Source: Gluconobacter sp. P1C6_b (GTDB taxonomy: Bacteria; Pseudomonadota; Alphaproteobacteria; Acetobacterales; Acetobacteraceae). Taken from it: a stretch of DNA of 64,000 bases. The position numbers and the translations under genes were made by a program. Below, piece by piece: positions 51,113 to 53,600 of the stretch. The DNA is taken from positions 62,001-126,000 of the forward strand of contig NZ_JACRVU010000003.1 of NCBI RefSeq assembly GCF_018811945.1. Direction: 5' to 3'. The notes below the pieces were generated by a model that saw nothing but the letters and a program-made list of their open reading frames with translations, did not search any database and had not been told where the DNA came from. Numbering within the stretch: the first letter of the stretch is position 1; every line of letters begins with the position of its first letter.

Positions 51113-52198
51113 TCAGCCGACGTTGCGGAGCGCCTGACTTTCCTGACGCAGTACATCGATCTGGACGTACTGACCGTCCCGCTCGAAATACCAGAATGTC
51201 CAACCATTGCAGGATGGTGCATTGGTCAGCATCGCACCCAGCTTGTGGATTGAGCCACGCTGATTGCCCGACACGAGCGTGCCATCGGGCGTGACGGTTG
51301 CTTTCAGCCGCTTCTGCCGGTCATACAGCAGCGTCCCGGCCGGAAGGACACCGGTTTCCACGAAACTGCCGAACGGAATGCGCGGCATTTCGCGCTTGGC
51401 GGGCGTCGTCGCAAGCTGCTCGGAAGTCAGGCGCTCTTCACGCGCCACGCGTTCCCGCGCCGCCTTGACGTAATCCGGGTGACGTTCGATGGCAATGTAA
51501 TGGCGCCCAAGACGCTTCGCCATCGCGGGGGTCGTGCCGCTGCCACAGAATGGATCGAGCACCACATCATTGGCATTGGTCGAGGCGACCAGCACGCGAT
51601 GCAGCAGGCTTTCCGGCTTCTGCGTCGGATGCAGTTTCAGACCATGTTCGTTCTTCAGACGCTCATTGCCCGTGCACAGCGGCAGGTACCAGTCCGAACG
51701 CATCTGAAGATCGTCGTTCAGCGCCTTCATGGCCTGGTAGTTGAAGCGATACTTGCTCTGCGGGCCGCGCGCCGCCCAGATCAGCGTCTCATGCGCATTG
51801 GTGAAGCGACGCCCGCGGAAATTCGGCATCGGGTTGGACTTGCGCCAGACGATGTCATTCAGGATCCAGAAGCCCAGATCCTGCATGATCGCCCCCAGCC
51901 GGAAGACGTTGTGATACGACCCGATAACCCAGATCGTGCCGTCCTTGTGCAGGATACGGCGCGCTTCACTCAGCCACTCGCGCGTAAAATTGTCGTAGGT
52001 CGCGTAATCCGCGAACTTGTCCCAGTCATCGTCCACGCCATCCACGACGGTCTCGTCCGGGCGACGCAGTTCACCGCGCAACTGAAGGTTATACGGTGGG
52101 TCGGCGAAAATGCAGTCCACGCTCCCATCAGGAAGCGTCTTCATCGTCTCGATGCACTCTCCACGCAGGATCTGGTCGACGGGAAATTCACCGCTCAT
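51113..52198 (-). CDS. ccrM: CcrM, cell-cycle-regulated DNA adenine methyltransferase (GANTC)
   Basis: Methylates the adenine of GANTC after replication in alphaproteobacteria and so marks cell-cycle progress. The 361-residue beta-class enzyme has the catalytic [12 protein letters not shown] early, the target segment [34 protein letters not shown], and the SAM motif [20 protein letters not shown] late. It ends with the extra C-terminal domain (about 270-361, including [20 protein letters not shown]) that is specific to CcrM. ATG 52198 overlaps the rnhB stop. Confidence 0.96.
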
Positions 52199-52818
52199 GC
52201 TGCGTGTGCCTCTGCTTCAATCATGTTTCGTATCGGCGCGAACCCGCGCCTGTGATGGGGTGTCACCCCCCGGAGCTTCAGTCCCTGCAGATGCGCGGCC
52301 GTGCCGTAACCGGCATTGCGCTCCCAGCCATAGGCATCATGCCGCACGGCCAGACGCGCCATCAGACGGTCCCGCGTCACTTTTGCGATGATGGAGGCTG
52401 CGGCGATGGACAGGCTGATCCCGTCTCCACCGATCACCATTTTTATGGGGCATGGCAGCTTCGGGGCATGTTTGCCGTCCACAAGCGCCAGATCGGGAGT
52501 GCGTCCCAGACGGGACAGAGCGCGCCGCATGGCCAGATAACAGGCCTGGGCGATGTTGATCCGCTCGATTTCCGCGACGGATGCGGCGCCGACACCAATC
52601 AGGGCCTGCTCATCGGCCATCAGGGCCTCATAGGCCAGCATCCGGCGTCGGGCCGTCAGCTTCTTGGAATCATCAAGGAGAGAAGACAGGGTTTCTGACG
52701 GGGGAGCCGTAAATGCTACGGCAGAAGCCACCACCGGCCCTGCCAGAGGACCACGCCCGACTTCGTCGATCCCGACGACCAGCCCCCCATGGGCAGCTTC
52801 CAGGGCGTAATCCGGCAT
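52195..52818 (-). CDS. rnhB: Ribonuclease HII
   Basis: Cuts RNA in RNA-DNA hybrids and at misincorporated ribonucleotides. The 207-residue protein has the DEVGRG signature ([20 protein letters not shown]), the second acidic site LALVDGKH and the late Asp region [20 protein letters not shown]. It is the first gene of a two-gene operon with ccrM (ATGA overlap), a conserved alphaproteobacterial order. Its upstream region has four GANTC sites. Confidence 0.95.
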
Positions 52819-52861
52819 TTCTGAGCATTCTCCCCGACAGACACCCCGAAATCAGGTGACC

Positions 52862-52951
52862 GAATCGGTTTTGAATCATGGCGACTCGAAAGGGAAGCCC
52901 CAAAATGCACATTCTCCAAGTTTAATCTGTCAAGTGTGGTGGGAAAGACTC
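52862..52951. promoter_or_regulatory. GANTC cluster upstream of rnhB-ccrM
   Basis: Four GANTC sites occur in 90 bp: GAATC at 52862-52866 and 52873-52877, GACTC at 52883-52887 and 52947-52951. About one per 256 bp is expected by chance in sequence of even composition. The sites flank a TTGACA hexamer on the minus strand (52929-52934), a candidate -35. In Caulobacter the ccrM promoter is controlled by methylation of its own GANTC sites, so this is a candidate autoregulatory promoter. Confidence 0.6.
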
Positions 52952-52957
52952 TTTCCC
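52941..52957. promoter_or_regulatory. Palindrome with central GANTC upstream of rnhB
   Basis: GGGAAAGACTCTTTCCC is a 7-bp inverted repeat with a 3-base centre, extended by T and A to 19 bp. The GANTC site GACTC sits in the middle. It lies between the GYF_2 gene stop and the candidate rnhB promoter; no T tract follows, so an operator seems more likely than a terminator. Confidence 0.45.
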
Positions 52958-52964
52958 ATCGCCG

Positions 52965-53600
52965 TCAGAGTTCTTCCTGTTCGTTGTCCTGACCCGAGGC
53001 TGGCGGGGTTGAAGGAGCATGCTGATTCAGCTGTCCCTGCCGGGTCTGAAGCTCGGTTTCGATCTGTGGCAGCTGATAGATTTTTTCCGTCACGTTGGCT
53101 GCCAGCAGCACGAGACTGACGATCAGGAGCGACAGTCCGCGCCCGACAATCTGCCGCCGTCTCCAGAAATATCCGGGCAGAAACAGCCACCACCAGAAGC
53201 CCGGCGGGGTCTGTCCACTTTCACGGATGGAGTTCCGGTCCAGCATGAAGGACGTAAAGAACAAGGCAAGCGCCATCATTCCGACAATGGAAAAAGTCCC
53301 CATCCGCTCGCTGTCAGGGATATGTCGCCAGTCCAGGACGAGAAGCGCCAGGCGCTGGATCAGCCATGGCCCGACCAGCAGGACCCAGGCCCAGTGCTCC
53401 GAGATCCCGGCCGACATGCGCAGCAGCCCCGTAAGCGGAGACACCAGCCCCGCCGCACTGGCCGGCTTCCAGACGTCTCCGAATTCCGACGTCCAGACAA
53501 GCGTCTCAGGTCTGATGCGCTGCTGCATGATCAGACGCAGAATTTCTTCACGGGAGACGGGACCGGCCTGCTGCCCGTTATTCTCGTAAAACCATTCCAT
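52965..53600 (-). CDS. GYF_2 (DUF4339) domain membrane protein
   Basis: A 211-residue protein. The N terminus is a GYF_2 domain (EWFYENNGQQAGPVSREEIL, LIMQQRIRPETLVWTSEFGD), which in other proteins binds proline-rich peptides or senses partners. Four hydrophobic helices follow (about 70-90, 102-122, 137-150, 155-172), with a Gln/Ser/Pro-rich tail. Function unknown. Its ribosome binding site GGAGG is inside the hairpin at 53606-53633, so its expression is probably coupled to that structure. Confidence 0.78.
   Translation of the reverse strand: MEWFYENNGQQAGPVSREEILRLIMQQRIRPETLVWTSEFGDVWKPASAAGLVSPLTGLLRMSAGISEHWAWVLLVGPWLIQRLALLVLDWRHIPDSERMGTFSIVGMMALALFFTSFMLDRNSIRESGQTPPGFWWWLFLPGYFWRRRQIVGRGLSLLIVSLVLLAANVTEKIYQLPQIETELQTRQGQLNQHAPSTPPASGQDNEQEEL

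Follow-up and report, generated by a model that had tools for sequence, protein, structure and literature searches.

Gluconobacter sp. P1C6_b carries a cluster of GANTC sites directly ahead of the genes for ribonuclease HII (rnhB) and the GANTC adenine methyltransferase (ccrM), which raises the question of whether the methyltransferase reads its own target sites to control its own synthesis and, if so, why these sites stand before rnhB. Methylation autoregulation of ccrM has so far been described mainly from Caulobacter, whose ccrM gene is activated directly by CtrA. The locus was analysed in a stretch of 64,000 nucleotides (the window) and compared with ccrM loci of relatives and of other families of the Alphaproteobacteria.

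The rnhB-ccrM locus and its GANTC sites

Four genes follow one another on the minus strand of the window in the order CsbD-like gene, GYF_2-domain gene, rnhB and ccrM (Table 1), the encoded CcrM sharing 98-100% identity with its counterparts in G. oxydans and close relatives. The rnhB stop and the ccrM start overlap by 4 bp (52195-52198) and the last 400 bp ahead of ccrM contain no GANTC. A gap of 146 bp (52819-52964) separates the stop of the GYF_2-domain gene from the rnhB ATG, and all four sites of the cluster, which spans 90 bp, lie inside it. The initial annotation had described four GANTC sites within 90 bp directly upstream of rnhB-ccrM and had placed rnhB inside the unit preceded by the cluster; the sites were confirmed, and the gene overlap together with the position of the whole cluster ahead of rnhB supports the second statement.

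Table 1. Features of the rnhB-ccrM region in window coordinates
Feature	Position	Strand	Remarks
ccrM	51113..52198	-	GANTC adenine methyltransferase; Pfam PF01555 (N6_N4_Mtase) and PF18755 (RAMA)
rnhB, ribonuclease HII	52195..52818	-	Pfam PF01351; ATG at 52818
Conserved block, window version TTTTGGGGCTTCCCTTTCGAGTCGCCATGATTCAAAACCGATTCGG	52860..52905	-	Three proximal GANTC sites, spacing 10 and 11 bp; near-invariant in 13 Gluconobacter rows
GANTC site	52862..52866	-	-48 from rnhB ATG; CGATTCG, fits YGAKTCK; 13/13 Gluconobacter rows
GANTC site	52873..52877	-	-59 from rnhB ATG; TGATTCA; 13/13 Gluconobacter rows
GANTC site	52883..52887	-	-69 from rnhB ATG; CGAGTCG, fits YGAKTCK; 13/13 Gluconobacter rows
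CTTGACA, -35-like, candidate promoter	52928..52934	-	Invariant in 13 Gluconobacter rows
Palindrome TGGGAAAGAGTCTTTCCCA (gene strand)	52940..52958		19 bp around the distal GANTC, just past the GYF gene stop
Distal GANTC site	52947..52951	-	-133 from rnhB ATG; palindrome centre; 12/13 Gluconobacter rows
GYF_2-domain gene	52965..53600	-	Pfam PF14237; upstream of rnhB, co-directional

The background of one GANTC per 256 bp assumed in that annotation was mistaken, in a direction that favours the finding: the genome rate is about one per 690 bp (1.45 per kb in the 1.60 Mb sampled, 47% of the same genome), and the window holds 80 sites against 340 in shuffled sequence. As the genome is GANTC-poor, the cluster is more striking than had been supposed, the probability of at least four sites in the 146-bp gap being 6e-5 at the observed genome rate. 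However, about 1.4 clusters of four sites in 90 bp are expected by chance in the 3.39 Mb genome, so density is not decisive on its own and the weight falls on location and conservation.

Other GANTC clusters were recorded in the same genome. One of them, between thyX and tRNA-Thr (L091:18426-18636, contig C8), is the only further tight cluster in the sampled 47% that is clearly intergenic; there, eight GANTC in about 210 bp accompany one DnaA box TTATCCACA. The box is retained in most Gluconobacter relatives, the number of GANTC sites varies, and the region is a possible replication origin or DnaA site. Five GANTC in 130 bp, unusual for a GANTC-poor genome, lie within a coding sequence (L126:16905-17034, contig C12) that, judged from its translation, is presumably ihfA (IHF-alpha), and two further clusters (L134 and L157) are within open frames.

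A consensus scan of the gap region returned no full or good sigma-70 promoter, and no good -10 element was found at the normal distance from CTTGACA in the Gluconobacter rows. The scans gave no preference between the candidate promoters CTTGACA, with a long spacer, and TTGGGC, around the first GANTC, and the array sites may lie in the promoter, in the leader or in both. The 146-bp gap contains neither a CtrA site (no TTAA-N6-8-TTAA, even when relaxed) nor a DnaA site, and Rfam gave no match in 52600-53200. The text of the G. oxydans 621H start-site paper mentions neither ccrM nor rnhB (PMC5756330).

Conservation among acetic acid bacteria

Eighty ccrM loci were collected from genome contigs, of which 47 together with the window gave 48 loci of acetic acid bacteria, covering Gluconobacter, Neokomagataea, Asaia, Swaminathania, Brytella, Bombella and a Bombella relative, Acetobacter, Gluconacetobacter and Komagataeibacter. 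At least three GANTC sites were present in the 175 bp before rnhB at all 48, and every cluster of four sites in 110 bp found in the loci of about 47 relatives (about 11 kb each) lay upstream of rnhB. The three proximal sites of Gluconobacter occupy -69, -59 and -48, or one base further, in 13/13 rows within the near-invariant block ATTTTTGGGCTTCCCTTTCGAGTCGCCATGATTCAAAACCGATTCGG, while other genera space their arrays differently, as exemplified by Acetobacter (-109, -83, -65, -49, -31) and Gluconacetobacter (-125, -114, -59, -47). The absence of positional conservation in relatives had been named beforehand as evidence against methylation autoregulation; position was found to be conserved within genera, and between genera the presence of the sites is kept while their position turns over. 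Over all genera, pairwise mismatch at shared sites was 2.9% for the GA..TC letters and 7.5% for the N, against 34% for the remaining region. The 13 Acetobacter rows gave no GA..TC mismatch in 1248 comparisons, and in both Acetobacter and Bombella rows the N of a site changes while GA..TC stays.

The palindrome fared differently. Reported as 17 bp long (52941-52957), it is present around the distal GANTC at a true length of 19 bp, but the proposal that it is a conserved site for a reader of methylation does not hold, since its length ranges from 5 to 27 bp in the 12 Gluconobacter loci that have the distal site, which is absent in a further one, G. wancherniae (L012). The 27-bp form occurs in G. 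oxydans NBRC 14819 and in G. potus and a 13-bp form in several others, and nothing beyond the bare 5-bp site is palindromic in G. morbifer and G. kanchanaburiensis. The palindrome starts about 6 bp past the stop of the GYF gene and could fold into a hairpin in some species. An intrinsic terminator of that gene was considered and rejected, because no U-run follows the hairpin and the arms are unpaired in some species, so that the palindrome qualifies neither as a plain terminator nor as a conserved site for a reader. Taken as a whole, the initial interpretation is supported in part, for the conserved sites and for rnhB inside the unit behind them, and not for the palindrome as a conserved reader site.

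A different symmetrical element was found in Acetobacter (L018, L021, L024, L025 and others), where a 15-bp inverted repeat, G.GCGACTCGG ... CCGAGTCGC.C, lies about 20-80 bp before rnhB with one GANTC in each arm. Some changes between species are compensated: pairing was retained in 87% of cells, compared with 29-41% in slid controls, and 13 cells changed on both sides; the pairs covering GANTC letters never vary, so that support for a structure is only moderate.

The bases flanking the array sites are themselves biased. Irrespective of whether all rows or one per lineage were counted, CGANTCG made up 41-42% of array sites against 3.2% in the genome sample, and YGAKTCK, the context of two of the four window sites, 50-52% against a background of 17.6%; symmetric flanks were seen at 64% of array sites against 26% in the genome sample. 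YGAKTCK is the extended motif proposed for activation by GcrA in Caulobacter, although the same study did not find it in Brevundimonas (PMC7987155). The genome encodes gcrA (PF07750 above the cut-off) as one 249-aa frame with both conserved ends, the DNA-binding and the sigma-interacting one, and GcrA is present in 55 of 60 family genomes. No GANTC was found within 200 bp at the promoter of gcrA itself, so the circuit need not copy that of Caulobacter.

GANTC arrays at ccrM across the Alphaproteobacteria

A survey of one genome per family across the Alphaproteobacteria yielded 29 other loci, in most of which rnhB adjoins ccrM. The order with rnhB directly upstream of ccrM (L191-L220) is widespread in the class and probably very old. 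Where a GANTC array is present in these families it usually lies between rnhB and ccrM: GANTC density in the 150 bp before ccrM is 19.8 per kb, compared with 1.85 per kb over the remainder of the 29 loci, and in 17 of them these 150 bp are the strict GANTC maximum of the locus. A recurrent layout was recognised before ccrM, consisting of TTGAC, about 3 bases, GANTC, 4-6 bases and a second GANTC (often TTGAC-N3-GANTC-N5-GANTC), and TTGAC-N1-6-GANTC was found ahead of ccrM at 17 of 28 loci, against a single occurrence in the remaining 217 kb of both-strand sequence. Of 61 spacings of 5-40 bp between adjacent sites, 24 measured 9-12 bp, where 7-8 were expected. Common ancestry underlies part of the evidence from spacing and motifs, and since descent from one promoter may explain part of the spacing, P-values attached to it are not to be taken literally.

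The place of the array followed the distance between the two genes. Among 134 loci scored, arrays of at least three sites before rnhB were found only where the rnhB-ccrM gap was 20 bp or less (57/57, median -4), and arrays before ccrM only where it was at least 38 bp (17/17 with known gap), a rule that is partly mechanical on the ccrM side, because a short gap puts the 150 bp inside rnhB, and not mechanical on the rnhB side. A quick tree of CcrM confined the rnhB-side arrays to one acetic acid bacterial group, in 57 of its 61 rows. The nearest relatives of that group (Lichenicoccus, KSS8) already have a gap of 5 bp with a single GANTC site, which suggests that the operon would have tightened first and the array before rnhB been built later, an order proposed tentatively, as the tree was quick and has many weak forks. 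At both places most deeper Acetobacteraceae with ccrM show 0-2 sites, with three in a single row (L041), and the same low number is seen in several other families; an array is thus not required for having ccrM.

Two further observations concern these loci. Several deep Acetobacteraceae (L235, L241, L243, L244, L245 and others) retain a TTGACGCGGC-like -35 element ahead of ccrM, although they mostly lack the GANTC sites of other families. Three ccrM loci titled Geothrix, Acidobacteria and Nitrosovibrio (L075, L076, L077) group with Acetobacteraceae and their relatives and look misbinned or mislabelled.

Proposed methylation-dependent control and its precedents

It appears rather likely that the 146-bp gap is the promoter region of an rnhB-ccrM operon and that the GANTC array makes this promoter respond to the methylation state that CcrM sets, the reader of the array probably being GcrA with sigma-70, as the extended motifs and the presence of gcrA suggest. 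Passage of the replication fork would leave the array sites, predicted to be methylated, in the hemimethylated state, and GcrA with sigma-70 RNA polymerase, or a different reader of methylation, would then bind differently at two to three sites that share a face of the helix. The predicted operon transcript would then be made during a limited period, until newly made CcrM remethylated the array and closed the loop. Since rnhB and ccrM are almost contiguous or overlap in acetic acid bacteria and both lie behind the array, rnhB has probably been drawn into the ccrM circuit, and RNase HII would come under the same control. With regard to the sign of the effect, repression by full methylation, as in the model for Caulobacter ccrM, and activation of the kind known from ftsZ would both be compatible with the sequence.

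Activation would mean that GcrA on the fully methylated array helps sigma-70 RNA polymerase to open the promoter, in a positive feedback ended by proteolysis. This is a possible alternative, if a somewhat doubtful one: GcrA joins sigma-70 polymerase and stimulates open-complex formation at methylated promoters (PMC7403470), fully methylated DNA is the form it binds best (PMC3667746), and in Caulobacter methylation raises the activity of ftsZ and mipZ promoters that have a conserved CGACTC (PMC3708114); the abundance of CGANTCG in the array, and the GANTC that directly follows the TTGAC element elsewhere in the class, are in keeping with it. However, the Caulobacter ccrM promoter, with two GANTC sites, is thought probably to be switched by their hemimethylation (review PMC10073500; PMC3973325), an effect called only 'most probably' direct (PMC3973325), and several array sites may fall outside the -35/-10 interval, a position tied to different timing in Caulobacter (PMC4287350). 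It is unlikely that the sites are instead kept as parts of binding sites for a methylation-independent factor or of a structure, as could be read from an N conserved above its surroundings (7.5% versus 34% mismatch), the symmetric flanks of 64% of array sites and the two Acetobacter sites in the arms of a long inverted repeat; variation of the N while GA..TC stays, the turnover of site number and position between genera while GANTC enrichment persists, and the arrays that many families of the class have next to ccrM itself are together hard to explain without the methyltransferase.

Helical spacing that recurs across families might also point to a platform for a protein that recognises pairs of hemimethylated or unmethylated GANTC one helical turn apart and, like SeqA, keeps the promoter closed after replication, and the DnaA box in the one other clearly intergenic tight cluster of the sampled 47% recalls the GATC clusters at oriC and the dnaA promoter. 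We know of no SeqA-like reader of GANTC and regard such a platform as improbable, given that promoter geometry or shared descent could give the same spacing and that the thyX-tRNA cluster is only a putative origin whose site number varies among relatives. Chance clustering in a short intergenic region, for which the 1.4 such clusters expected per genome of this size at the observed density would speak, is ruled out for practical purposes by conservation at 48/48 acetic acid bacterial loci and by the class-wide enrichment at ccrM.

On the preferred reading of a promoter that responds to the methylation state set by CcrM, a wider proposal may be ventured, which we hold more tentatively: in many alphaproteobacterial families ccrM would be equipped with a self-reading switch, an array of densely packed sites for its own product, ancestrally TTGAC-N3-GANTC-N5-GANTC between rnhB and ccrM, and in acetic acid bacteria this array would have been rebuilt one gene upstream once rnhB-ccrM became a tight operon, capturing RNase HII in a replication-timed methylation loop. 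The arrays amount to a class-wide prediction at the level of sequence, testable for example in Gluconobacter, where no full CtrA site was seen at the promoter. They also prompt one to ask why ribonucleotide repair by RNase HII travels with post-replicative methylation and is probably under joint control with it in acetic acid bacteria.

GANTC sites upstream of cell-cycle genes were tallied in a comparative study of 2010, whose authors concluded that regulation could not be deduced from them (PMC2877005); a study of 2021 made such a count for ctrA and not for ccrM (PMC8116508). Our search, which covered only a minority of subscription papers, found no publication naming rnhB together with ccrM and none on CcrM together with acetic acid bacteria, and priority is therefore not claimed. 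Targeting of the ccrM promoter by its own product is already known from Caulobacter; the variant described here is the array before rnhB and the class-wide layout.

Three known systems invite comparison. The GATC clusters of the E. coli dnaA promoter and oriC, read by SeqA, likewise gather methylation sites at a replication-linked promoter, but involve another methyltransferase and another motif. The promoters governed by GcrA and CcrM (ctrA P1, ftsZ, mipZ) have GANTC near or between -35 and -10, as may also hold for the Gluconobacter gap, and resemble it in their YGAKTCK or CGACTC motifs (PMC7987155, PMC3708114), and GcrA is present in Gluconobacter too; they usually have one site, whereas Gluconobacter has an array with a spacing of about one helical turn, the predicted target is the operon of the methyltransferase itself, and GcrA binding is putative. 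In Caulobacter crescentus, as predicted for Gluconobacter, GANTC sites lie in the promoter of the methyltransferase gene itself. In that species two sites are present and CtrA is a direct activator, whereas Gluconobacter has four sites (3-9 in relatives), no match to a full CtrA site, and an array that precedes rnhB, with ccrM second in the predicted unit.
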